Origin: Nonomuraea sp.
GTDB lineage: Bacteria > Actinomycetota > Actinomycetes > Streptosporangiales > Streptosporangiaceae
Direction: 5' to 3'
Assembly: GCA_013362835.1 (NCBI GenBank)
Contig: JABFVJ010000211.1
Location: 1-8,540, forward strand
DNA length: 8,540 bases
Shown here: positions 1-8,490 of the stretch, piece after piece
How the letters are laid out: each line of letters opens with the position of its first letter
Numbering within the stretch: the first letter of the stretch is position 1
Program-made: the position numbers and the translations under genes
The notes under the pieces: model-generated
What the model was told of the DNA's origin: nothing
What the model saw: only the letters and a program-made list of their open reading frames with translations
Database searches by the model: none

Positions 1-149
1 TGCGCTCACCCCCGCCCCTCAAGATCTTTTGGCGCGCGTGATCGCCGTACCGGGTGACCGGCCCGAGCGCGCCAAAACATCTTGCTGACCGGGGGCCGCC
101 CGGTTGCGCTCCGTCCCTTCCGCCTGCGTGTCCGCCTTCACCGGAACAC
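1..149 (+). repeat. Direct repeat copy 1 (149 bp), control region of the small Cys-rich gene
   Basis: These bases match 7701-7849 with only two differences, at 88 and 89, so the two copies sit exactly 7,700 bp apart. The left end is cut by the window edge, and the repeat may extend beyond it. Weaker similarity continues through the ribosome binding site into the gene at 189, including a C5/G5 hairpin at 154-168 whose loop differs between the copies. The block holds an 18-bp inverted repeat (20-37 and 67-84). It lies upstream of a four-cysteine gene in both places, so I infer it is a shared promoter or operator region. I cannot pick a convincing -35/-10 pair in it. Confidence 0.9.
20..84. promoter_or_regulatory. 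18-bp inverted repeat, spacer 29 bp
   Basis: The left arm CAAGATCTTTTGGCGCGC (20-37) is matched by the right arm GCGCGCCAAAACATCTTG (67-84), with 17 of 18 positions complementary. A smaller nested stem, GCCG (44-47) with CGGC (59-62), lies in the spacer. The arrangement suits a dimeric protein binding two half-sites, or a cruciform/RNA hairpin. No T-run follows, so it does not look like a classical terminator. The same structure, including its single mismatch, recurs at 7720-7784. Confidence 0.7.
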
Positions 150-188
150 GGACCCCCCGAGCAGGGGGCGCACGGAAGGAAGCCCACC

Positions 189-392
189 ATGACCCTCGCC
201 CTGCCGATCACCGCCGAACTCGACCTGGCCACCTGCACCCGGCCCACCTGCAACGCGACGGTCCCCTTCACCGAGACCGTCGAGCTCATCGGCGACGACG
301 GCAGCCGCGGGCGCGAGTGCCTGGCCTGCCTCTCCCAGCGCGTCGACGGCTACCGCCAGGCGCACGCCGACAGCATCCCGCTCCCCTACTAG
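189..392 (+). CDS. Small four-cysteine (zinc-ribbon-like) protein, 67 aa
   Basis: This is a small protein of unknown function. Cysteines at residues 16 and 21 (C-x4-C) and 44 and 47 (C-x2-C) are spaced like a four-Cys zinc-binding knuckle pair; a structural zinc is inferred, not shown. The ATG at 189 is chosen because GGAAGGAAG (174-182) lies 6 bases upstream. Earlier in-frame starts would place coding sequence inside the conserved 149-bp leader. The protein is related to the one at 7890-8132: both begin MTL, share a Leu/Asp-rich N-terminus and a CTR motif at the first cysteine, and have a second CxxC. It is the first gene of the rightward set, and a hairpin at 401-420 separates it from ssb. 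A DNA- or protein-binding role is possible but not supported by more than the cysteines. Confidence 0.75.
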
Positions 393-400
393 CCGCCCAG

Positions 401-420
401 GCGGGGCCCTCGGGCCCCGC
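401..420 (+). terminator. GC-rich hairpin between the Cys-rich gene and ssb
   Basis: GCGGGGCC (401-408) pairs with GGCCCCGC (413-420) around a 4-base loop, nine bases after the stop codon of the upstream gene. No T-tract follows, as is usual for actinobacterial hairpin terminators. It may stop or weaken read-through into ssb. Confidence 0.5.
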
Positions 421-499
421 TCCCGGCGGCCTTCCGACTCCCGCTCCGGCGATCTGGCTCCGTTCCGTACCCGCAATCCACCCGTCCTGGAGGGACACC

Positions 500-991
500 A
501 TGGCCAACGACACCGTCATCACCCTCGTCGGCAACCTGGTCGACGACCCCGAGCTCCGCTTCACCCCCACCGGCACGGCCGTCGCCCGCATCCGCGTCGC
601 GTCCAATCCCCGCTTCTTCGACCGCGCCACCAACGACTGGAAGGACGGCGACAGCCTCTTCCTGACCTGCAACATTTGGCGCGACCTGGGCGAAAACGCT
701 GCTGAGAGCCTCCGGCGCGGAATGCGGGTCATCGTCCAGGGGCGCCTCAAGCAGCGCTCCTACGAGACCGCCGAAGGCGAGAAGCGCACCGTCTACGAGG
801 TCGACGTCGACGAGATCGGCCCGTCCCTGCGCGGCGCGATCGCCAGGGTCACCAAGGCCAACCGCAACCAGGCCGCGCCCGAGGACCCCTGGGCCACCGC
901 CACCCCGGCTCCCGCCGAAGACAGCGAGGGTCAGGACAACCTCGCGATGGCGGGCGCCGGCGCCAACGACGGCGAAACCCCGCCGTTTTAA
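500..991 (+). CDS. ssb: Single-stranded DNA-binding protein (SSB), 163 aa
   Basis: SSB binds single-stranded DNA as an OB-fold tetramer during replication, repair and plasmid transfer, and recruits partners through its C-terminal tip. The N-terminal part (about residues 1-115) has the family pattern: VTLVGNL-like start, [14 protein letters not shown], the [25 protein letters not shown] segment (read in pieces) and [13 protein letters not shown], all close to actinobacterial SSBs. A low-complexity Ala/Pro/Asp linker follows, and the protein ends in DGETPPF, a recognisable but weakly acidic version of the usual DDDIPF-like tip. The ATG at 500 has GGAGGG (489-494) 5 bases upstream; frames starting further left would add an unrelated Arg-rich N-terminus. 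Actinomycetes usually carry chromosomal ssb with ribosomal genes (rpsF, rpsR, rplI). That context is absent, so this is probably an accessory or plasmid-type copy. Confidence 0.95.
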
Positions 992-999
992 CCCCACCC

Positions 1000-1029
1000 C
1001 CCGGTGACCCGCCTCAGCGGGTCACCGGG
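1000..1029 (+). terminator. Terminator-like hairpin after ssb
   Basis: CCCGGTGACCCGC (1000-1012) is perfectly complementary to GCGGGTCACCGGG (1017-1029), giving a 13-bp stem with a CTCA loop, nine bases after the ssb stop. There is no T-tract. It likely ends the ssb transcript or stabilises its 3' end. Confidence 0.75.
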
Positions 1030-1072
1030 ATCCCTATCCATGCCGCCGACCGACCGACAAGGGAGCAACCCC

Positions 1073-1672
1073 ATGACCACTCCTTCGCCGCAGCACGCCG
1101 GCGTCGAAGCCGCCCGCGCCTGGGCCGCCCTCGACGCGATCGAAACCTCCTCCGTGCTGTGGGACCAGACCGTCTACCGCACGTTCTACCTGGGCGAGGA
1201 CGCCCAGCTCCTCCACCAGTCGGGCTCGCCCACCCACATCATCGACCTGGCCACCGTGCCGAGCTCGTTCAGCCTCTACGCCCGCGATGACATCGCTCCG
1301 GAGATCTTGAGCCGCTGCAAGGCAGCGATGTGCCTGGCCGGGATCGTGTGCGAACTCGACGGCGGCACCTGGCTGGTCGCCATCGCCCCGACAGGGCAGC
1401 TGCTGTTCAAGGGCAAGCCAGCCACCCTCGACGAGCTGGGATACCGATCGCCGGACCTGCTGGTGGCCACCGAGCAGGAGATCGCCGAGGGAACCGCGAT
1501 CACGACCGAAGGGGAACAGGCGATGCTCCCGCATGAGCGGGCGCGGCGCCTGCTCGGCCTCGACCCCAGCCAGGCCGAAGCGCTCTTCTCCAGCGGCAAC
1601 CGCTTCGACGACCTGCTCCGGCAACTGGAGCAGCTGTACGGCCCGCGCCCCGACCGGCCGGCGGCAGCATGA
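1073..1672 (+). CDS. Hypothetical protein, 199 aa
   Basis: I do not recognise a family. The start at 1073 is preferred because AGGGAG (1060-1065) lies 7 bases upstream; in-frame starts at 1004 and 1040 overlap or directly follow the hairpin and lack a good ribosome binding site. The protein has no clear signal peptide or membrane segment. A mixed central part includes a stretch around residues 95-115 (CLAGIVCELDGGTWLVAIAP) that reads as two beta strands. The C-terminus (about 150-190) is helical and acidic, with HERARRLLGLD and a DDLLRQLEQLYG helix, which could mediate protein contacts. Its stop overlaps the start of the next gene by four bases (ATGA), so the two are translationally coupled and probably work together. 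Codon use matches the neighbours. Confidence 0.8.
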   Translation: MTTPSPQHAGVEAARAWAALDAIETSSVLWDQTVYRTFYLGEDAQLLHQSGSPTHIIDLATVPSSFSLYARDDIAPEILSRCKAAMCLAGIVCELDGGTWLVAIAPTGQLLFKGKPATLDELGYRSPDLLVATEQEIAEGTAITTEGEQAMLPHERARRLLGLDPSQAEALFSSGNRFDDLLRQLEQLYGPRPDRPAAA

Positions 1673-2265
1673 GCGACGTGACCGCTTCACAGGTGGTCGG
1701 CGCGCTCGTGGCCGACCCCGACCAGGTCACCGTCCAACGGGACGCCGAGCGGCTCCTCGTCGGGGACGCTCGCGTCCTGTGGGATCTGGCCGCCCTACCC
1801 GCTCAGGCCACCGTTCCCGCGACCAGCCACGAGCCGACCGGCCGGCTGCCGCACCTCGACACCATGGTCGACGACGGCACCTGGGCCTGGCACCCGCAGC
1901 GCCGCCCCAGGCTCCTGCGGCCAACCCCTCGCTACGACCTGGCCGCCGCCTGGCGGCAGCTACACGGCGACTACCTCCACGAAGCCGACTCCTACGCCCG
2001 CATCGACTGGTCGCCCTGGTCCTACCAGCAGGCCCGCATCGGGCTCCTGCACCACACCCCGCTCGCCGTGAACGACGCCTGGCTACGGCGAGTGCACCAC
2101 ACCTACCCAAACCTGGCCATGTCCGGCATCGATCCGCGCATGCCGCTGGTCATCCTCACAGGCGCCGAGGCCCGCGTGGTCGGGTTCGCCGACGCCGCGA
2201 TCCTGCCGGACTCAAGCCGCGACGTGCTGACCGCCATCTCCAGCGCCCAGCCCATCCACGTCTGA
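1669..2265 (+). CDS. Hypothetical protein, 198 aa, coupled to upstream gene
   Basis: No family is recognised. The ATG at 1669 overlaps the upstream TGA, the usual signature of a coupled pair. The protein is rich in Trp, His, Arg and Tyr in its middle part (about residues 70-145: WAWHPQRRPR, RIDWSPWSYQQARIG, AWLRRVHHTYPNL), which suggests a compact soluble fold with a basic aromatic surface. The last 45 residues look alpha/beta (MPLVILTGAEARVVGFADAA). No catalytic motif, cysteine cluster or membrane segment is visible. The gene ends in a strong hairpin at 2296-2327, so 1073-2265 probably forms one transcription unit. A role alongside SSB is possible from position only. Confidence 0.8.
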   Translation: MSDVTASQVVGALVADPDQVTVQRDAERLLVGDARVLWDLAALPAQATVPATSHEPTGRLPHLDTMVDDGTWAWHPQRRPRLLRPTPRYDLAAAWRQLHGDYLHEADSYARIDWSPWSYQQARIGLLHHTPLAVNDAWLRRVHHTYPNLAMSGIDPRMPLVILTGAEARVVGFADAAILPDSSRDVLTAISSAQPIHV

Positions 2266-2295
2266 CCGCGCCTGACCGCGCTCCTGGCCGCGCCC

Positions 2296-2327
2296 GGTTG
2301 GCCCTCACCTCCGGGCGAGGGCCAACC
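2296..2327 (+). terminator. Terminator-like hairpin after the coupled hypothetical pair
   Basis: GGTTGGCCCTC (2296-2306) is perfectly complementary to GAGGGCCAACC (2317-2327), an 11-bp stem with a 10-base loop, 30 bases past the stop at 2265. It separates the coupled pair from the phosphatase gene. Confidence 0.7.
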
Positions 2328-2453
2328 ACCGGCTCACCCGGCAGGCAGAACCCCCGCTCGATCACCCTGGAGTCTCCGTCGCCGGGGCCCAGCCGAGGGC
2401 AGCCCAAGCCCGCCCAGCCACCGACCGCACTGTCCCCCAAGGGAGCCCAGCTC

Positions 2454-3168
2454 ATGCCCGTCTTCACCAACGACGCGCTCAACGTCCGCATCTGCCACGA
2501 CAGCCTGCGCGGCAACCGCGACGTCAACGCCGACGCCCTCACCGTCGCCGAATGCGGCAGCCGCCTCGCCATTGCCGTCGCCGACGGCGCCGGAGACAAC
2601 GACGGCGCCGCCGAATGCGCGCGCATCGCCGCTCTGCTCGCCTCCGCGATCACGGCAGCCACCGGAAACCCCCTCCGCGGCCTGGACGAGACCGCGCCCT
2701 TTCTCACCGAGCGGGCCGACGCCGCCGCCATCCCGCTCACCGCCCGCACGACCGCCACCATCCTGGCCATCACCCCCGACCACTTGACCCTGGCCTGGGC
2801 AGGCGACTCCCCCGCCTGGGCCATCACCCGCGATGGCCAGGTACGCGGCCTGACTGACCCGTCCTGCCACCCCTGCCTGACGCCCTGCAACGTCACCGAA
2901 CCCCACGAAGGAGCCACCTACTCCCCGCACTGGGCTTCCCTGGACCGCGGCGAGGTCGCCCGGCTGATCCTGGCCAGCGACGGCCTGACCGCTCACCTGG
3001 CCAGACCCGCCCGCGCCGACCACGTCCAGGCCATGACCGACACCCTGGCCCCGAATCGCATCCCCAGCCCACCACCTCGAAGACGTCCTGGCCGACCTGC
3101 TCGACCTGACCCGTGACCACGGCTCGCTCGACAACACCTCCGTCGCCGTCGTCGACCTCCCCCTCTGA
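2454..3168 (+). pseudogene. PP2C-family Ser/Thr phosphatase with a frameshift near its C-terminus
   Basis: PP2C phosphatases remove phosphate from Ser/Thr using two metal ions held by conserved aspartates. Visible motifs from the ATG at 2454 (AAGGGAG 8 bases upstream) are: the R-x-x-N-x-D-like segment near residues 19-28, VADGAGDNDG (42-51; usual VADGMGGH) with the D44-G45 metal site, ARTTATI in place of the usual GTT motif, WAGDSPAW (115-122), and LILASDGLT (171-179). The starting frame then turns into an implausible Pro/Arg run and stops at 3116. The next frame, from about 3066, continues correctly with HHLEDVLADLLDL and DNTSVAVVDL, the last PP2C metal motif, stopping at 3166-3168. Removing one C from the run at 3062-3065 (or 3068-3070) restores a 237-residue protein. 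The short product (220 aa) would lack the final metal-binding Asp and probably be inactive. The cause may be a sequencing error, a true mutation or recoding. Terminated by the hairpin at 3205-3246. Confidence 0.85.
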
Positions 3169-3204
3169 CCCGATTCCGTCACCCGCGAGCACCACCATCC
3201 CGCA

Positions 3205-3246
3205 ACGGCCTCCGCCCTCCGACACACGTCGGAGGGCGGAGGCCGT
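3205..3246 (+). terminator. Strong terminator, perfect 19-bp stem
   Basis: Bases 3205-3223 and 3228-3246 are perfectly complementary over 19 bp, with a 4-base ACAC loop. The hairpin lies 36 bases after the restored phosphatase stop and 29 bases before the DUF4192 start. It is the strongest hairpin in the window and marks a clear end of transcription. Its position right after the restored stop, not the early one, supports the frameshift reading. Confidence 0.85.
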
Positions 3247-3275
3247 CCCTGTTATCCGATGAGGAGCTGCCGCCC

Positions 3276-4319
3276 ATGACCGCCGAGCTCGTCCACCTGC
3301 GAACCCGCGTTGACCTCCTGGCCGCCATCCCCTACATGCTGGGCTTCCACCCGGCCGACAACTCCCTGGTCGCGCTGGGCTTCCTCCGCCAAGCCCGCCC
3401 CAGCCCGGAATGCGTAGCGCGCTACGACCTACCGCACGACAGCGCCGACCTGCCCGACCTGGCCGCCGACCTCTGCGCCCTGCTCCACCAGCGCAACCTC
3501 GATGTGGTCGCCCTCGTCGGCTACGGCCGCGGCGAAATCGTCACCCCCGCCATCGACGCCGTCACCACCAGCCTGGACGCTGCCGGGATCGAGATCCTCG
3601 ACGCCCTGCGAGCCGAGGACGGCCGCTACCACAGCTACCTGTGCCACGACCCGTCCTGCTGCCCACCCGAGGGGTGGCCCTACGACACCACCACCACGGC
3701 GGTCGCCGCCGCCCTCGTGGCCCGCGGGCGCAGCCCACTGCCCGACCGCGCCACCTACATCGCCCAGCTCAACCCCGTCGCCGGCACCGACAGGCAAAAG
3801 ATCACCGCAGCGACCCGCGCCGTCTGCACCAAGATCCGGCAAGCCGCCGTCACCCCGCCCCGGAGCTGGTACCGGCAGGGCAAGCAGCGCGTCCGCGAAG
3901 CCCTCGAACACGACGCAGAGCTGTCGGCCGACCAGGTGGCGTGGCTGGGCGCCCTCCTGACCGCGATTTACATCCGCGACGCCGCGACGGCCCTCATCGG
4001 CCCCTTCCCCGAACAGACGCACCTGCGGCTGTGGACCCAGATGACCAGGCGCGTCGACCCCGCCTTCGCCGCAGCCCCGGCCACCATGCTGGCCATCACC
4101 GCGTGGCGCGCCGGCGAAAACGTGCTGGCCGAAGCCGCCATCAACCGGGCACTGAACACCAATCCCGACTACAGCCTGGCCCTCGCCATCCGCACAGCCC
4201 TTCGGCTCGACGCCCGCGAAACCCGCATGTCCGACCTCGCGAGCATGGCCGACACGATCGACATCTGCGTCGAGCGCAAGCCCGAAGGCGCCAGACCGGT
4301 GCTTCCAGAAGGCTGGTAA
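3276..4319 (+). CDS. DUF4192 domain-containing protein, 347 aa
   Basis: DUF4192 proteins are actinobacterial and have no established function. The hallmark is near the N-terminus: after a short basic/hydrophobic lead, the LLAAIPYMLGFHPADNSLV segment (about residues 14-32) matches the family's P-x-LLGF-x-P-x-x-SLV signature. An alternating alpha/beta region follows (VVALVGYGRG, IEILDAL, then YLCHDPSCCPPEGWPY with its conserved C-x-D-P-x-C-C-P-P-x-G pattern). The C-terminal third is helical and TPR-like (AITAWRAGENVLAEAAINRAL), again typical. The length is normal for the family. The start at 3276 has GAGGAG (3261-3266) nine bases upstream, just after the strong terminator, so the gene probably has its own promoter. 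No membrane segment is visible, so it is probably cytoplasmic. Confidence 0.93.
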   Translation: MTAELVHLRTRVDLLAAIPYMLGFHPADNSLVALGFLRQARPSPECVARYDLPHDSADLPDLAADLCALLHQRNLDVVALVGYGRGEIVTPAIDAVTTSLDAAGIEILDALRAEDGRYHSYLCHDPSCCPPEGWPYDTTTTAVAAALVARGRSPLPDRATYIAQLNPVAGTDRQKITAATRAVCTKIRQAAVTPPRSWYRQGKQRVREALEHDAELSADQVAWLGALLTAIYIRDAATALIGPFPEQTHLRLWTQMTRRVDPAFAAAPATMLAITAWRAGENVLAEAAINRALNTNPDYSLALAIRTALRLDARETRMSDLASMADTIDICVERKPEGARPVLPEGW

Positions 4320-4391
4320 CCCCTCGCGACACCCGGCGCCAGGAGCCGCGCAGCCTCTCACCAGTATCCCAAGTCAACCAACCATGGGGAC

Positions 4392-4453
4392 CCCCCTCGG
4401 GCCGCCGCCGCACTGCATGCCTATGGCCTGCGGAGCACACCGTAGGGCCTGCA
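4392..4453 (+). repeat. Diverged non-coding repeat, copy A
   Basis: This stretch resembles 7363-7426: both run from a CCCCCTCGGG tract through a GCCGC-rich part to CATGCCTAYGGCCTGC, then GAGYACRCCGYAGG. By eye about three quarters of the positions match. The right half is an imperfect dyad with GCCTATGG on one side and CCGTAGGGC on the other. Both copies lie in gene-free DNA. Confidence 0.6.
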
Positions 4454-4576
4454 CCCCCACTCGCCGCGTAAATCTCAGCCGCCGCACGCCGCAGACCACA
4501 GCCGCCGTACCGACCACCCTGCGTGCTGCACGAGCCCGCCGCTGTGCGCGATCGGCTGGCCTCTGGTGCGGGGTGG

Positions 4577-4596
4577 CTGGGGGCTCGCGCCCCCAG
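4577..4596 (+). terminator. GC-rich hairpin, probable terminator downstream of the DUF4192 gene
   Basis: CTGGGGGC (4577-4584) pairs perfectly with GCCCCCAG (4589-4596) around a TCGC loop, followed by a run of C and G blocks that can extend the structure to about 4620. GGGGGCTC-GCCCCCA hairpins of this kind are very common transcription ends in actinomycete genomes. It is 258 bases from the DUF4192 stop, so the link to that gene is uncertain. Confidence 0.5.
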
Positions 4597-4858
4597 GCCC
4601 CCCGGGGGCGGGCGGGGGAGCCGCCCACCGGGCGCGCACCTGCCCGCCGCACACGGCGACTCCCCCGCCCGCAACGCTCGCAGCGCCCCTTTCCGGTCAG
4701 CCCATCCGGGGATCTGGGCGCGCCGGCCGCGCGGCTCTCGCCCGGCCGCGTATCCAGCGCAGCCCTTTCAGCGATCACCACGATCGCCCTCACGGCCCGC
4801 AGGGTTGTTGCCGCAGGTGGCCCCGACTGGACAGGCTCTCTACGCTTGGTCCGAGTCT

Positions 4859-4920
4859 CCTCTCTGGAGGAGCTCAACCTGCAGGGTCCGGTGAGGCCTT
4901 CCGGAACGGAACCTCGCCAA
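4859..4920 (-). repeat. Degenerate third copy of the leftward-gene leader
   Basis: Read on the plus strand it begins CCTCTCTGGAG, as do the leaders at 5421 and 5965, then shares CAACCTGC and TTCCGGA in register, with much divergence in between. The promoter core found farther upstream in the intact copies is missing. I find no start codon at the right distance to its left, so it looks like the remnant of a lost third paralog. Confidence 0.5.
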
Positions 4921-4989
4921 CCGAGCACCCCGGTGCCAGGGAACAGCAAGGCTCCACCTCGCCGGACCCCTCAACAGCCAGCACCCGCC

Positions 4990-5019
4990 CTACGGGCCAC
5001 CCCGCGAGGCGGCCCGTAG
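4990..5019 (-). terminator. Terminator of the leftward gene at 5028-5414
   Basis: On the minus strand the arms CTACGGGCC and GGCCCGTAG extend inward to a 13-bp stem with two G-T wobbles and a 4-base loop, starting nine bases after the stop codon. It resembles the hairpin following the paralog (5566-5593) in its ACGGG...CCCGT base and C-rich/G-rich interior, so the terminator appears to have been duplicated with the gene. Confidence 0.75.
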
Positions 5020-5027
5020 TCCAGGCG

Positions 5028-5414
5028 TCAGCTCATCGTGCGAGCCAGATCCGTAGCCTTCCGGATGCCATCCCCCGCCCGGATGATCGCATAAACGATC
5101 ATTGCCCGGTCATGGGGCCGCTCCTTATCCCGGTCGACCAGAACAACGACCAGCTCATGCAGCGTCAGCCACTCGATCACCGCCTCCTCCATGAGGTCAG
5201 CCATCTCCTCCGGCATCGGCATCCCCGCGAGCAGCGTCCGCGCGTTGTCGATCGCGGCGACCTGTACCGCTCCGGAGTGCCCGCCATCAGCCCAGCTCGG
5301 GACCGCGATCGGGATCGGCAGCATCAGCAGCAGCTTGGCCAGCTGGTCATACGCCCCGATCATGGCCATCGTCGCGAGGTGCAGAATCTCGAAACGATCG
5401 GAGTTCTCGTCCAT
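5028..5414 (-). CDS. Small helical protein, paralog 1 (128 aa)
   Basis: No known family is recognised. It is clearly related to the gene at 5600-5956. Both have a helical N-terminus, a central LP-x-PIA-x-P motif (LPIPIAVP here, residues 32-39), a variable GxxG-containing part, then an acidic helix ending in EWLT-x-H (residues 81-86) and a DRD-x-x-R-type motif with a final helix. Leu, Met, Ile and Val are frequent, but no segment is a clear membrane span. The start at 5414 is chosen over an in-frame ATG at 5438 because AGAGAGG lies 6 bases upstream of 5414, inside the conserved leader, and the ATGGACGA start lines up with TTGGACAA of the paralog. The promoter is at 5489-5494 with a leader of roughly 65-75 bases. 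Confidence 0.8.
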   Translation of the reverse strand: MDENSDRFEILHLATMAMIGAYDQLAKLLLMLPIPIAVPSWADGGHSGAVQVAAIDNARTLLAGMPMPEEMADLMEEAVIEWLTLHELVVVLVDRDKERPHDRAMIVYAIIRAGDGIRKATDLARTMS

Positions 5415-5420
5415 CGACGT

Positions 5421-5499
5421 CCTCTCTGGAGTTTTCAACCTGCGAACGCCGGGCGGAGAGCTTCCGGACTCTCCCTCCCAACAAGAAAACTATACCACA
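5421..5499 (-). repeat. Leader/promoter repeat, copy 1
   Basis: This matches 5965-6043 with three differences in 79 bases. Read on the minus strand it contains the promoter core, a G-rich segment, a hairpin (GGAGAG with CTCTCC around an 8-base loop containing TCCGGA) and the ribosome binding site. Conservation is as high as or higher than in the proteins downstream, so the RNA leader or its DNA is probably functional. Confidence 0.85.
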
Positions 5500-5509
5500 G
5501 ATTTACCCC
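5477..5509 (-). promoter_or_regulatory. Promoter of paralog 1
   Basis: Read leftward, there is GGGGT (5509-5505), ten bases, then an extended -10 TGGTATAGT with TATAGT at 5494-5489, followed by TTTTCTTGTTGGG. The same elements with the same 10-base spacing occur at the paralog (6053-6021) and before the HTH gene (6092-6124). No good -35 hexamer is visible, so the GGGGT block may be a regulator site or a non-standard sigma contact. Confidence 0.65.
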
Positions 5510-5565
5510 GAAGGATCATTGGATAGCGAGAAATCCCAGGCAGGAAGCGCGATGGACGACACGAG

Positions 5566-5593
5566 ACGGGCCGCCCCTCGCGGGACGACCCGT
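5566..5593 (-). terminator. Terminator of the leftward gene at 5600-5956
   Basis: On the minus strand ACGGGTCGTCCC pairs with GGGGCGGCCCGT as a 12-bp stem with two G-T wobbles and a GCGA tetraloop, starting six bases after the stop codon. It is similar to the hairpin after paralog 1. Confidence 0.75.
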
Positions 5594-5599
5594 TTTCGA

Positions 5600-5956
5600 C
5601 TAGTCCAGGTGCTCGTGATCCACCAGGATCTTGGCGACGTTCACAGCCTCCGCAACCCGATGCAGAGCCAGCGCCACCACGCGCCGATCGCGACCGAGCA
5701 GGCTCACATCGTGCGCCGTGAGCCACTCCAGGACTGCTATCTCGATCGCAGTCCGAGTCTCCTCGCGAAGCGGGAGGAGACCGAGAAGGTCAAGGCCTCC
5801 TTCGAGTCCCTTCACCGTTGGCCCCGTGTAGCCGGACTCCTCGGGATCCGGAATCGCGATGGGAACCGGCAGGCTCCGCAGGACCTTGTTGAGCAGCGCG
5901 TACTGCGCCAGCAGGATCTCGATCGGGGACTCTGGAAGATCGTGGGTGTTGTCCAA
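5600..5956 (-). CDS. Small helical protein, paralog 2 (118 aa), TTG start
   Basis: This is a paralog of the protein at 5028-5414, of unknown function. Shared features are LPVPIAIP (residues 29-36), a helical acidic stretch, EWLTAHD (77-83) and a GRDRR motif (88-92), with a helical C-terminus. The central part, PDPEESGYTGPTVKGLEGG, differs in detail but also carries the G-x-x-G turn. The start at 5956 is TTG: it aligns with the ATG of the paralog, and AGAGAGG sits eight bases upstream in the same leader, with no ATG or GTG nearby. The gene sits 86 bases upstream of the paralog's promoter repeat and has its own promoter and terminator, so this is a repeated monocistronic cassette, not an operon. 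The two proteins may have diverged to partner with different targets, or may be dosage variants. Confidence 0.8.
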   Translation of the reverse strand: MDNTHDLPESPIEILLAQYALLNKVLRSLPVPIAIPDPEESGYTGPTVKGLEGGLDLLGLLPLREETRTAIEIAVLEWLTAHDVSLLGRDRRVVALALHRVAEAVNVAKILVDHEHLD

Positions 5957-5964
5957 TGGACGTT

Positions 5965-6043
5965 CCTCTCTGGAGTTTTCAACCTGCGAGCGTCAGGCGG
6001 AGAGCTTCCGGACTCTCCCTCCCAACAAGAAAACTATACCACA
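5965..6043 (-). repeat. Leader/promoter repeat, copy 2
   Basis: This is the second copy of the 79-base block at 5421-5499 (three differences). It has the same hairpin GGAGAG/CTCTCC and ribosome binding site, and the same promoter core. Similarity continues into the upstream DNA to about 6062. Confidence 0.85.
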
Positions 6044-6053
6044 TATATACCCC
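6021..6053 (-). promoter_or_regulatory. Promoter of paralog 2
   Basis: Read leftward, there is GGGGT (6053-6049), ten bases, then extended -10 TGGTATAGT (TATAGT at 6038-6033) and TTTTCTTGTTGGG. The surrounding DNA is A+T-rich against a very G+C-rich background, as expected for a promoter. It faces away from the promoter at 6092-6124. Confidence 0.65.
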
Positions 6054-6067
6054 AAATGGATCATTTG
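6053..6067. promoter_or_regulatory. 15-bp palindrome between divergent promoters
   Basis: CAAATGGATCATTTG is a perfect 6-3-6 inverted repeat lying between the two divergent -10 elements (6033-6038 and 6107-6112). Its position suits an operator that controls both directions. A weaker version (CGAAGGATCATTGG) is at the same place in the other promoter repeat. Confidence 0.5.
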
Positions 6068-6091
6068 CTGGGTGTTATTGCTGATAGAACC

Positions 6092-6124
6092 GGGGTCGAA
6101 GGGTGGTATAGTTTTATTGTTGGG
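6092..6124 (+). promoter_or_regulatory. Promoter of the HTH gene, inverted copy of the same core
   Basis: GGGGT (6092-6096), ten bases, then TGGTATAGT with TATAGT at 6107-6112, followed by TTTTATTGTTGGG. Bases 6103-6124 are the reverse complement of 6021-6042 with one mismatch in 22. Transcription would start near 6119, giving about 60 bases of leader before the gene at 6182. Confidence 0.65.
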
Positions 6125-6181
6125 CTGCGCAAGCCGCCCAGAGGGTTTCAACATCGATCTTCGTGGCGCAGGGAGGCACAC

Positions 6182-6628
6182 ATGATTCCGCACGGATGCC
6201 AGGCCGTCGACGCCAAAGCCGCATGCGAGATCCTCGGCATCAGCTACAAGACGTGGCACAACACCGGCGGCGAAAGCCGCTACGGACTCACCCCGCTCAA
6301 CCCCGGCCGTCGCAAGCCGCTTTACGAGCGCACCCACGTCGAAGCTGCGCGCGATGCTCAGCCGATCCCCTCCGCCGAGCCGCAACCGCCTCACCCCGAC
6401 GACCTGCTAGACGACCTCGACATCGCCGAGACCCTCGGGGTCGCGTACGCGACCATCCGCAAAGACCGCGCAGACGGACGGCTGACCGGCTGGACGCAGG
6501 TCTACGGCGTGCACCACCTCACCCGAGCCGCCCTGGGTGACCAGATCGCTGCCCGCCCTGGCAAAGGCGTCGGTGGTGGCCGCCCCCGCAAAACCACCCC
6601 CGCCGACGAGGCACCGAGCACGAGTTGA
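6182..6628 (+). CDS. Tandem helix-turn-helix DNA-binding protein, 148 aa
   Basis: This is probably a DNA-binding regulator or excisionase-like factor. The N-terminal part (residues 8-50) has an HTH-like sequence, AKAACEILGISYKTWHN, followed by GLTPLNPGRRKPLYER, the order seen in MerR/Xis-like winged helices (helix-turn-helix then a basic wing). A proline-rich linker (61-72) leads to a second HTH-like part (75-105: DLDIAETLGVAYATIRKDRADGRL, again followed by a possible wing). The tail holds GGGRPRK (131-137), similar to an AT-hook. The start at 6182 has GGGAGG (6171-6176) five bases upstream. The gene is divergent from paralog 2 and shares its promoter core, so it is the natural candidate for controlling the cassette and itself. 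Its target sites are not proven. Confidence 0.8.
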   Translation: MIPHGCQAVDAKAACEILGISYKTWHNTGGESRYGLTPLNPGRRKPLYERTHVEAARDAQPIPSAEPQPPHPDDLLDDLDIAETLGVAYATIRKDRADGRLTGWTQVYGVHHLTRAALGDQIAARPGKGVGGGRPRKTTPADEAPSTS

Positions 6629-6651
6629 GCGGCAGTCCGGCGCCCACCGGC

Positions 6652-7242
6652 TCACAGGCGCGGGTCGTCGACCAAGCGAAAGCCGTCCGCGTGCGTGTCC
6701 GACAGTGCGCGCACAGAGAACCGGCGGCCCGCCAGCTCCCCCATCGGCAGTCCTGCCTGCTCCGCGATCGCAGTGGCGGGCATCCGCAACGGTGCCTGCG
6801 CTGGGTGCCGTGATGTCACCAGCAGCGCCTGCTCCCCCACCGTCAACAGCACCAGGACCTCGTCCTCCGCCACCCGCAGATCCTTTCCCTGCGCCTCAAC
6901 CCAGCGCTTGACCGTGGTGGGGGCCAGTTCCAGCTCAGCGGCGAGTCCACGCCAGGAGAACTCCCCCGGGAAACCATGCCGGGCAGCCGTGATCAACACC
7001 CGGCGACGCTCCTCCAGCGCTCCAAGCGCGGGCCCCAGCGCAGCGAACACCCTCCGGAACTCCGCCACCGACCCCGGCACATGCTCTCGCAGGCGGCCAT
7101 GCCCAAGCTCGCGCAGCACCTCGCCGAGCTCACCGTCCTCCGCCAGTTGGCTCATCAGCCCCGAGGGGTCGTCGGCCTGCGCCGAGTATTCGACCGTGAA
7201 CCTCCGGGCATCCCCTTCGGCCGCGTAGTCCGTGATGCGCAT
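6652..7242 (-). CDS. HTH-containing protein, 196 aa
   Basis: The overall family is not recognised. Residues 95-116 (FSWRGLAAELELAPTTVKRWVE) read as a helix-turn-helix, with a basic helix before it (LEERRRVLITAARHG). The N-terminal 60 residues are acidic and mixed, and the C-terminal part (about 125-190) looks like beta strands with EVLVLLTVGEQALLVTS, which may bind a ligand or partner. The ATG at 7242 has AAAGGAGA five bases upstream. The gene is convergent with the tandem-HTH gene (23 bases between stops). It is preceded by a double operator at 7261-7299, so autoregulation is likely, although another repressor could act there. Confidence 0.75.
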   Translation of the reverse strand: MRITDYAAEGDARRFTVEYSAQADDPSGLMSQLAEDGELGEVLRELGHGRLREHVPGSVAEFRRVFAALGPALGALEERRRVLITAARHGFPGEFSWRGLAAELELAPTTVKRWVEAQGKDLRVAEDEVLVLLTVGEQALLVTSRHPAQAPLRMPATAIAEQAGLPMGELAGRRFSVRALSDTHADGFRLVDDPRL

Positions 7243-7260
7243 CGCTGTCTCCTTTCACGC

Positions 7261-7300
7261 TGTACCGTTTCGGTACACCCAGTGTGCCGAAACGGTACAC
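7261..7300 (-). promoter_or_regulatory. Double palindromic operator upstream of the leftward HTH gene
   Basis: TGTACCGTTTCGGTACA (7261-7277) is a perfect 7-3-7 palindrome. A second, near-perfect copy, GTGTGCCGAAACGGTACAC, lies at 7282-7300. The two are also inverted with respect to each other, so 7261-7278 and 7282-7299 form an 18-bp dyad with one mismatch. Such twin sites suit cooperative binding by a dimeric repressor (TetR-like operators often look similar). The sites overlap the expected promoter, directly before the ribosome binding site. Confidence 0.75.
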
Positions 7301-7700
7301 CACGAGGAAGGGGGCCGCCAGCGACGCCGCACCTCCACAAGTCCGGGGACAACCCAGGGCAACCCCCTCGGGCTGACCGCCGCACACCGCATGCCTACGG
7401 CCTGCCGAGTACGCCGCAGGCCCTGACGTCCCGCCATAGACCCTGCCGCCGCCTCGCGCCCCGGGGTGCCACCTCGGCGACCGCGCTGACCGCCGTACGC
7501 CGCTGACCGCGCCCGGACCGTAGCCGGTTGCCCGCCGTACCTGGTCGCCGCAGCGCGAGCAGAGAGCGGCCGAGGCCGGACGGAACTGACCCGTCGAGAC
7601 GGACCGTCACCGCCGCGCCCCCGGGCGGGGTCCCTGGCCGGGGCCGTGTTCCGATCAGTCAGCCTCGCAGGCACGGTCCTCCGCGCAACCGGGCTTTCGC
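7301..7700. other. Gene-free region before the second 149-bp repeat
   Basis: No coding frame here is convincing. The region holds copy B of the diverged non-coding repeat (7363-7426), small stems at 7579-7595 and 7598-7608 built from GACGG/CCGTC, and a C/G-block hairpin near 7616-7632. It ends in the 149-bp repeat at 7701. With the leader of the next gene, the non-coding stretch runs to 7889. Confidence 0.6.
7363..7426 (+). repeat. Diverged non-coding repeat, copy B
   Basis: This resembles 4392-4453 from the CCCCCTCGGG tract to CATGCCTACGGCCTGC and GAGTACGCCGCAGG. It can form a stem GGCCTGC (7399-7405) with GCAGGCC (7416-7422). Confidence 0.6.
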
Positions 7701-7849
7701 TGCGCTCACCCCCGCCCCTCAAGATCTTTTGGCGCGCGTGATCGCCGTACCGGGTGACCGGCCCGAGCGCGCCAAAACATCTTGCTGGACGGGGGCCGCC
7801 CGGTTGCGCTCCGTCCCTTCCGCCTGCGTGTCCGCCTTCACCGGAACAC
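7701..7849 (+). repeat. Direct repeat copy 2 (149 bp)
   Basis: Copy of positions 1-149 with two differences (7788, 7789). It contains the same 18-bp inverted repeat (7720-7737 and 7767-7784). Downstream, a hairpin of five C (7854-7858) and five G (7864-7868) is kept at the same offset as in copy 1, with a changed loop, and leads to a second cysteine-rich gene. Confidence 0.9.
7720..7784. promoter_or_regulatory. 18-bp inverted repeat, second copy
   Basis: Identical in both arms to the site at 20-84 and with the same 29-bp spacer. Probably the binding site of the same factor. Confidence 0.65.
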
Positions 7850-7889
7850 TCCACCCCCGGCCAGGGGGACCGCACGGAAGGAACCCGCC

Positions 7890-8132
7890 ATGACGCTCCG
7901 CCTCGACCTCCGCCCCTCCAGCACCGACCTGACCGCCTGCACCCGCTGCGGCAACCCGATCACCCGCGCCGAGGCGGCGATCTCCTTCCCCAACCGCACC
8001 TGCATCTGCGGGCGCTGCGTGGCCGCCGAGGTGGCCAGGCTCGCCCAGGCCGCACAGGTCGAGGCCTTCTCCGAGGCGGTCGACGCTGATCGGCTCGCGA
8101 ACGTCGCCGACCGGCCCCTGCCCCGGATCTGA
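7890..8132 (+). CDS. Small cysteine-rich (zinc-finger-like) protein, 80 aa
   Basis: Function unknown. It is the paralog of the protein at 189-392, with MTL-start, CTR at the first cysteine and a second CxxC. Cysteines lie at residues 17, 20, 38, 40 and 43; C17-x2-C20 with C40-x2-C43 makes a plausible four-Cys zinc ribbon, more regular than in the first copy. The C-terminal part (44-70, VAAEVARLAQAAQVEAFSEAVD) is an acidic alpha helix absent from the first copy. The start at 7890 has GGAAGGAA (7876-7883) six bases upstream, as in copy 1. The stop is followed at once by a hairpin pair (8133-8167). Confidence 0.8.
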   Translation: MTLRLDLRPSSTDLTACTRCGNPITRAEAAISFPNRTCICGRCVAAEVARLAQAAQVEAFSEAVDADRLANVADRPLPRI

Positions 8133-8294: not shown

Positions 8295-8490
8295 ATGCTG
8301 CCCGAGGTCCAGGCCCTATCTCACCGCCATCGACTCTTCCGACCACTACAGCGAAAACGCGGCCGTTCACGACCGTTACCCCGTCCCCGAATGGGACTAC
8401 ACCATGACGCCGCAGGAGGTCGCGGCCTACTTCGAGGCCGAAGAGAAGCACACCGGGGTCGAGGATCCGGCGGACAGCCGTTGGCGCTGA
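8295..8490 (+). pseudogene. Small hypothetical protein with an apparent one-base frameshift
   Basis: The ATG at 8295 has a strong GAGGAGAAG ribosome binding site (8282-8290), but its frame soon turns into an Arg-rich run typical of a wrong frame. From about 8317 the +1 frame gives a convincing acidic protein: YLTAIDSSDHYSENAAVHD, then RYPVPEWDYTMTPQEVAAYF and a C-terminus ending ADSRWR, stopping at 8488-8490. Removing one C from the CCC at 8314-8316 joins them into a 64-residue protein starting MLPEVQAYLTAID. I do not recognise the family; it looks helical and acidic. The alternative is an independent start at the in-frame ATG 8404 (28 residues), which lacks as good a ribosome binding site. 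The break may be a sequencing error, a mutation or recoding. Confidence 0.65.

Follow-up and report, generated by a model that had tools for sequence, protein, structure and literature searches.

The single-strand promoters Frpo1 and Frpo2 of plasmid F are described as 92% identical, about 5 kb apart, with one of them before ssb, and as needed for the early expression of the genes downstream (PMC9849209). Promoters of this kind are reported as demonstrated for F and for ColIb-P9 (ssi), others having been traced by similarity (PMC9849209, PMC11541004, PMC12826799), either by BLAST from five known sequences together with promoter-box candidates (PMC11541004) or by searching PLSDB through BLAST for known and putative Frpo (PMC12826799). 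The main texts of the latter two reports contain no word beginning with "actino", our searches of the open-access literature gave no recognised description of such elements in actinobacteria, and actinomycetes are described as known mainly for FtsK-type transfer (PMC3218068). Two further systems are relevant here. Plasmid pLS20 carries repeated GC-rich foldable sequences before its establishment genes, termed EGeRS1, of ~600 bp and with a branched fold, which in the authors' view are highly unlikely to be single-strand promoters; in pLS20 the transferred strand is the non-template strand, which makes such promoters unlikely (PMC8708921). The sso1 of ICEBs1 is structured and orientation-dependent, and serves second-strand synthesis (PMC4595007). 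In this work we analyzed a stretch of 8,540 nucleotides from Nonomuraea sp. (contig JABFVJ010000211.1, hereafter the window), which carries two copies of a foldable non-coding element; we think it reasonably probable, from the analysis given below, that this element represents an actinobacterial family of Frpo-like foldback control elements that lie in the leading region of conjugative DNA and act as single-stranded-DNA promoters.

A repeated foldback element and its relatives

Positions 1-149 and 7701-7849 of the window (98.7% identity, spacing 7.7 kb) differ at two adjacent positions only (88 and 89), in agreement with the two differences reported in a first-pass annotation of this DNA, and past position 149 the copies diverge, with 18 ungapped matches over the next 41 bases. 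A repeat search gave no longer direct repeat in the window than this pair (D1; 168 nt, 95% identical). Most of each block consists of a single large, imperfect inverted repeat (I4, I5), which that annotation did not mention. Copy 2 of the foldback element reaches ~55 nt further upstream (7646-7700) than the 149-bp block and copy 1 is truncated at its 5' side by the window start; probably the window is a complete contig starting inside the repeat, given that a protein search placed the window's own Cys protein on a contig of 8540 bases.

The element is built as an AT-rich core, CAAGATcTTTT-stem-loop-stem-AAAAcATCTTG, within nested outer stems (Table 1). Folded as single-stranded DNA, region 1-190 displayed a z of -4.2 and the element proper of copy 2 one of -9.0; when 7611-7890 was folded as a single strand, the minimum-energy structure (z -5.2) contained all the copy 2 stems listed in Table 1, while folding of the shorter 7641-7880 gave other pairings for the two outermost stems. 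The small C5/G5 hairpin that the annotation had described behind both blocks is indeed present, but its supposed conservation does not extend to the relatives introduced below: near its position, 14 of them show only stems of 3-8 bp that vary in sequence and place (script).

As the sequence letters do not carry far, relatives were traced through gene order. The DUF4192 protein of the window matched the 358-kb plasmid NZ_CP109431 of Streptosporangium sp. NBC_01495, where a hairpin of the same build, with other stem letters and a z of -13.1, is located directly upstream of ssb. The pattern used in the follow-up fixed the AT-rich core only and left the stems free, the GATCTTTT/AAAACATC core and the C.C mismatch thus being imposed by the search. 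Two of the 394 genomes of a class-wide draw matched, both with paired stems and both belonging to one family. The next sample comprised 341 genomes of one family, Streptosporangiaceae, to which a Nonomuraea-like genome belongs whose SSB shares 99% identity with the N. gerenzanensis protein. Here the pattern GATCTTTTN{22,52}AAAACATC gave 23 copies in 18 genomes, in support of the annotation's suggestion that more copies exist elsewhere; the reversed core pattern gave 0 matches in the same 341 genomes. Both matches of genome G800 share coordinates with copies of NZ_CP109431.

Blastn of the block against 50,697 phage records gave no match, and the strict core pattern none in IMG/VR; a looser pattern returned 78 stretches there, none with an inner stem longer than 3 bp, which were treated as chance and discarded. 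Among the ssb loci of other actinomycetes obtained by a contig search with ssb, none had the core motif. The class-wide blastn of the block (0 of 394 genomes, at 2 candidates scored per genome) is unusable as a negative. Likewise, the covariance model R1, scored on 13 candidates per genome, recovered its training genome G148 and not G158, a genome present in an earlier draw of the class, so its emptiness is uninformative; its second match was genome G180 at E 0.09.

Covariation was calculated on 19 non-redundant elements, retained from 28 after near-duplicates were dropped; the window, the 130-kb copy of NZ_CP109431 and the two elements of the class-wide draw are among them. At positions 1-5 of the inner stem, 88 of 95 cases were paired (92.6%); when the 3' arms were permuted the mean inner pairing was 45.6%, with 0 of 10,000 permutations reaching 92.6%, and sliding the arms by 1-3 bases gave at most 51.6%. 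Three kinds of pair were seen at four of the five inner positions (on a slightly different set of 19). For the outer stem, positions 4-14 were 56.9% paired vs 40.7% when permuted (0 of 10,000) and positions 1-3 were 86% paired vs 72% (1 of 10,000), the columns of the outermost stem, which is out of register in some rows of alignment A3, having been excluded from this evidence. A single one of the 23 matches, L220, pairs at just 2 of the 5 inner positions, and the 130-kb copy has a paired G-C at the mismatch site, thus the C.C mismatch is not universal.

Judged from these aligned sequences, the fold is kept by selection while the letters of its stems vary. The annotation had proposed either selection on the control region or its recent conversion, and both appear to hold on separate features: covariation identifies the fold as the feature maintained by selection, whereas the near-identity of the two window copies points to recent copying or conversion, because the loop, which cannot be aligned between plasmids, is identical in both.

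Across 20 elements the single-strand folds ranged from z -2.5 to -15.8, that is, long stem-loops such as those that characterise Frpo and ssi. As controls, 23 of 26 upstream regions of NZ_CP109431 had a z above -2.6 and three were strong (-5.9, -10.0 and -15.3), while six control regions in the window ranged from +0.3 to -5.2. When NZ_CP109431 was scanned in 240-nt windows its three copies were the three strongest hairpins of the plasmid, a statement limited to this plasmid because scans of pPaSha1 and pLS2-2 did not rank the known Pseudonocardia-type elements first.

The strong hairpins of NZ_CP109431 that precede genes are located in locus L168 at 13230-13470 (z -15.3), 41692-41930 (-5.9) and 43027-43265 (-10.0), all on the minus strand. 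Two of them carry CAAGATC and CATCTTG around another loop, and such hairpins perhaps constitute a second subfamily, as far as their sequences indicate.

Genes behind the elements and position of the relaxases

The gene that follows is a member of the small Cys-rich family in 15 of the 23 copies, two of these (L220 and L221) being distant members; ssb follows directly in three, and the remaining five are three hypothetical genes, one FAD-monooxygenase-like and one SLOG gene. In 12 of the 15 Cys-gene cases an ssb start lies within 450 nt. The distance from core to start codon is 105-114 nt before Cys genes and 112-130 nt before the other genes, excepting L227 (271 nt). For two further copies, belonging to another family, the next genes are ParB-like (PF02195) and SprT-like (weak, under the cut-off). 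Thus the block behaves as the control-region-like unit that the annotation had seen in it, but a regulon specific for zinc-ribbon or Cys genes was rejected, since 8 of the 23 copies precede other genes. Copies at random places without a Cys-rich gene behind them had been named in advance as a ground for giving up that reading; copies without a Cys gene did occur, but their places are not random, being before genes and, where a relaxase was found on the contig, directed toward it.

The two Cys genes of the window, cys1 and cys2, are 34% identical and are distant members of one small family, as the annotation had grouped them; its description as four-Cys genes is approximate, given that cys2 has five Cys and that the first Cys pair of cys1 is C-x4-C, not C-x2-C. 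cys2 gave a weak match to zf-C4_ClpX (E 0.0063, under the Pfam cut-off). A profile search with the family returned 22 proteins at E <=0.001 among 1172 candidates, and the members with a named organism are from Nonomuraea or Actinomadura.

Relaxases were searched by HMM, with PF03432 in 18 genomes and PF08751 in 20 genomes. On their own contig 16 of 25 elements have a relaxase (TrwC or PF03432) and 9 have none; for each of these 16 the nearest relaxase lies downstream, at 2.9 to 128 kb, and shares the strand of the element, the one of G643 resting on a match under the cut-off. Among the nine others, L247 and L248 have a relaxase homologue by tblastn, again downstream on the same strand.

The copies of NZ_CP109431 sit within two blocks, at 119.8-187.5 kb and 239.4-254.2 kb, where 68 of 69 and 22 of 22 genes, respectively, are on the minus strand, and near the far end of the first block there is a relaxase annotated as hypothetical (PF03432, E 2.6e-8). 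This gene, L168:9383-11557 (minus strand), belongs to a plasmid that has been typed as non-mobilizable; its product has an FtsK-gamma-like C-terminal domain under the Pfam cut-off, and homologues occur in L239, L247 and L248.

On the Pseudonocardia alni plasmid pPaSha1, the region 233.8-270.1 kb holds 45 genes, 44 of which point one way, and includes ssb, primase, DprA and ParB-like genes. The last gene of this array is preceded by a related hairpin, and after it come one opposite gene and mobF. All five Pseudonocardia plasmids matched by the related hairpin are typed MOBF. In G158 the element is followed by a ParB-like gene and then by a TrwC relaxase (E 7.5e-92). Near this element, at L201:1605-6878 (plus strand), there is a gene for an RHS-repeat protein with a DddA-like deaminase domain.

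The gene content around the elements resembles that of leading regions, with ssb, ParB-like, DUF932 and methyltransferase genes. In F and R388 the relaxase genes are on the lagging side. Relaxase genes are described as typically being on the lagging side of oriT (PMC11541004), which would put the elements into leading regions and make the transferred strand the template for the genes that follow.

How the elements might act

We propose that the elements belong to the leading, or establishment, region of conjugative plasmids or integrative elements of the relaxase type. The transferred strand would enter the recipient single-stranded and the element would fold into a long hairpin with bulges, the paired core of which is AT-rich. 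RNA polymerase, alone or with a plasmid factor, may use this pseudo-duplex as a promoter, and the establishment genes, those for the Cys protein and SSB among them, would be expressed before the second strand exists; conversion to double-stranded DNA would abolish the hairpin and expression would cease. Of this scheme, the repeat, the fold, the covarying stems, the location ahead of genes and the direction toward a relaxase are observed, whereas the identity of the transferred strand, the recruitment of RNA polymerase by the hairpin and an early, transient expression are inferred. Priming of the second strand is a possible additional role.

Several observations weigh against this proposal. There is no relaxase in the window itself, and blastn of positions 1-188 against 72,556 plasmid records, F among them, retrieved nothing at E 0.01. 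Some folds are modest (L214 -2.5, L223 -3.2, L205 -3.5 and L212 -3.5) and overlap the values of some control regions (-5.2 and -4.3 in the window). The contigs are partly related, therefore the 16 of 16 relaxases found downstream are not 16 independent events. The two blocks of NZ_CP109431 are divided by ~52 kb of mixed-strand cargo (187.6-239.2 kb; 27 of 42 genes on the minus strand), strands are also mixed around G158 and G148 (by simple ORF calling), and in two of the five Pseudonocardia plasmids there is no annotated same-strand gene behind the related hairpin. The assignment of the transferred strand as template is deduced from the relaxase position only, and the candidate oriT block of the window (Table 1) could not be oriented. 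Finally, none of 15 elements scanned linearly between position -300 and the gene had a TTG-type -35 combined with a TANNNT -10; this is no evidence against promoter function because the identical scan found none upstream of F ssb either. Look-alikes of -35 and -10 boxes noticed by eye in L065 and L066 were set aside, as they are absent from the window group.

The main rival is a structured RNA leader, which we regard as unlikely though deserving serious consideration: transcription would start upstream and the ~200-nt hairpin would act in the mRNA of the establishment genes, by attenuation, antitermination or translation control, as has been considered for EGeRS1 of pLS20. Covarying stems placed before start codons fit an RNA equally well, and pLS20 offers a precedent of foldable repeats described as unlikely to be single-strand promoters (PMC8708921). 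However, seven elements compared are conserved between about -90 and +110 relative to the core and only at background level further upstream, with no conserved promoter there, nor did the above scan find a promoter within 300 nt. Moreover, coding-strand mismatches showed no preference for G.T over A.C (16 and 16, small numbers), contrary to what RNA wobble would produce, and nothing in the window matched an Rfam family at E values up to 1.

Less probable again, and in our opinion rather remote, is a single-strand initiation site (sso/ssi), at which the hairpin would prime second-strand synthesis and the position before genes would be secondary. The title of the Frpo paper reportedly names both transcription and primer synthesis. 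Such sites are described as structured and orientation-dependent, as in ICEBs1 sso1 (PMC4595007). Nevertheless, several copies per plasmid near start codons suggest gene control, while priming needs one site.

A duplex operator, in which a dimeric regulator would recognise the conserved half-sites CAAGATcTTTT and AAAAcATCTTG, would account for AT-rich half-sites conserved within GC-rich DNA, but was rejected as very improbable: the half-site spacing varies widely (GATC-to-CATC 40 to 67 nt) and the adjacent letters change yet stay complementary, which a duplex-binding protein does not require. A MITE-like mobile repeat or an assembly duplication, the latter raised by the annotation itself, would explain near-identical copies and a window starting inside one of them, as contigs often end in repeats, but we give it hardly any credence and rejected it given the different genes behind the two window copies and the covariation and fixed position of the copies of other plasmids, which have stems that differ in letters but still pair and which precede genes in a single orientation.

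Coming back to promoters active on the incoming strand, a wider proposition is offered tentatively, as one that may well not hold in full: actinobacterial relaxase-type conjugation would have its own promoters, working only on incoming single strands, unrelated in sequence to Frpo and recognised not by the ordinary promoter hexamers but by an AT-rich core in paired form, in which a C.C mismatch (G.G on the template) is usual. They would be shared by TrwC- and PF03432-type elements and by at least two actinomycete families, and would drive the genes for the Cys protein, SSB, ParB-like and other establishment proteins; the related large hairpins of the Pseudonocardia plasmids and of NZ_CP109431 (~125.2, 153.7 and 155.0 kb) would be further subfamilies. 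If this is true, early expression from incoming single-stranded DNA would be a wider, perhaps convergent, principle, on the basis that a family of elements in high-GC actinomycetes shares fold and place with Frpo, not letters, and the elements would provide a sequence-plus-structure handle for locating leading regions and establishment genes in actinomycetes.

Neighbouring features and comparison with known systems

The features of the window are collected in Table 1. Homologues of some of the genes at 5028-7242 are located between the element and TrwC in L234, L240 and L242, and for that reason the window is probably, as far as gene order can tell, the relaxase-proximal part of such a conjugative element. 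The candidate oriT block has an inner G-rich/C-rich hairpin and is the one conserved in L234, L240, L242 and L243.

Table 1. Positions of the elements, genes and other features in the window.
Feature	Positions	Strand	Remarks
Foldback element, copy 1	1-148	+	repeat D1, inverted repeat I5; 5' side cut
Core hairpin, copy 1	20-84	+	CAAGATcTTTTGGCGCGC, 29-nt loop, GCGCGCCAAAAcATCTTG; C.C mismatch
Small C5/G5 hairpin, copy 1	153-168	+	ahead of ribosome-binding site
cys1, small Cys-rich gene	189-392	+	67 aa; no Pfam match at E 0.1
ssb, single-stranded DNA-binding protein	500-991	+	PF00436 E 1.3e-29; NF005851 E 3e-66
Hypothetical genes behind copy 1	1073-1672, 1669-2265	+	
PP2C-like frame	2454-3116	+	frame apparently disrupted near 3060
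DUF4192 gene	3276-4319	+	
Non-coding block, candidate oriT	4550-4640	.	unoriented; conserved at equivalent place in four other elements
Gene	5028-5438	-	
Gene	5600-5956	-	
HTH-like gene	6182-6628	+	
HTH-like gene	6652-7242	-	
Foldback element, copy 2	7646-7849	+	minimum-energy fold of 7611-7890
Nested stems, copy 2	7646-7653/7842-7849, 7666-7672/7822-7828, 7683-7693/7799-7809	+	
Inner nested stems, copy 2	7709-7714/7790-7795, 7720-7725/7779-7784, 7727-7737/7767-7777	+	
Core hairpin, copy 2	7720-7784	+	CAAGATcTTTTGGCGCGC, 29 nt, GCGCGCCAAAAcATCTTG
Small C5/G5 hairpin, copy 2	7854-7868	+	
cys2, small Cys-rich gene	7890-8132	+	80 aa; 99% identical to Nonomuraea sp. NPDC050663 protein

Other non-coding repeats are present in the window. 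A 93-nt block, 94% identical between its copies, occurs at 5420-5512 and 5964-6056, ahead of each of two minus-strand genes, and an inverted relative at 6091-6124 lies ahead of the plus-strand gene at 6182, GAAAACTATACCAC being common to them; together they look like one operator set for all three genes, to judge from their arrangement, and relatives of the 93-nt block are present in L243, L240 and L242. Immediately upstream of the HTH-like gene at 6652-7242, paired 18-nt arms (TGTACCGTTTCGGTACAC / GTGTGCCGAAACGGTACA) at 7261-7299 are likely its operator, as predicted from the sequence. A second non-coding repeat pair, 4411-4451 and 7385-7425 (D6), is 83% identical and has an inverted repeat inside each copy. 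The PP2C-like gene frame at 2454-3168 and the small gene at 8295-8490 look disrupted, either genuinely or by sequencing errors, and after the PP2C-like gene a perfect 19-bp inverted repeat with a 4-nt loop (3205-3246) resembles a terminator.

Compared with the systems described at the outset, the element is, like sso1 of ICEBs1, a structured non-coding element of conjugative DNA, sso1 being described as orientation-dependent and acting single-stranded; unlike sso1, it occurs in several copies directly before genes. With EGeRS1 of pLS20, compared by description, it shares repeated foldable sequences before establishment genes, and it differs in its fold, a single long hairpin of nested stems whose AT-rich core is fixed. 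From Frpo and ssi it differs in the lack of sequence similarity, in that no consensus promoter boxes were found and in its host, a GC-rich actinomycete, so that the likeness is one of structure and position only; as sequence similarity is absent and the promoter activity is a predicted one, we do not class it as Frpo. In the F region the ssb, DUF905, ParB-like, psiB and DUF932 genes lie on the same strand, followed by one opposite gene and then by traM; the Frpo2 region, upstream of ssb, has a z of -7.1 by the same method and ranks sixth in a hairpin scan of a 19-kb stretch; its fold is a hairpin with bulges, the inner stem of which is rich in AT. The actinobacterial elements likewise form a long hairpin that is bulged and AT-rich in its inner stem, and are accompanied by ssb, ParB-like and DUF932 genes on one strand, heading to the transfer genes; as with Frpo of F and ssi of ColIb-P9, near-identical non-coding copies are repeated a few kb apart, one of them before ssb.

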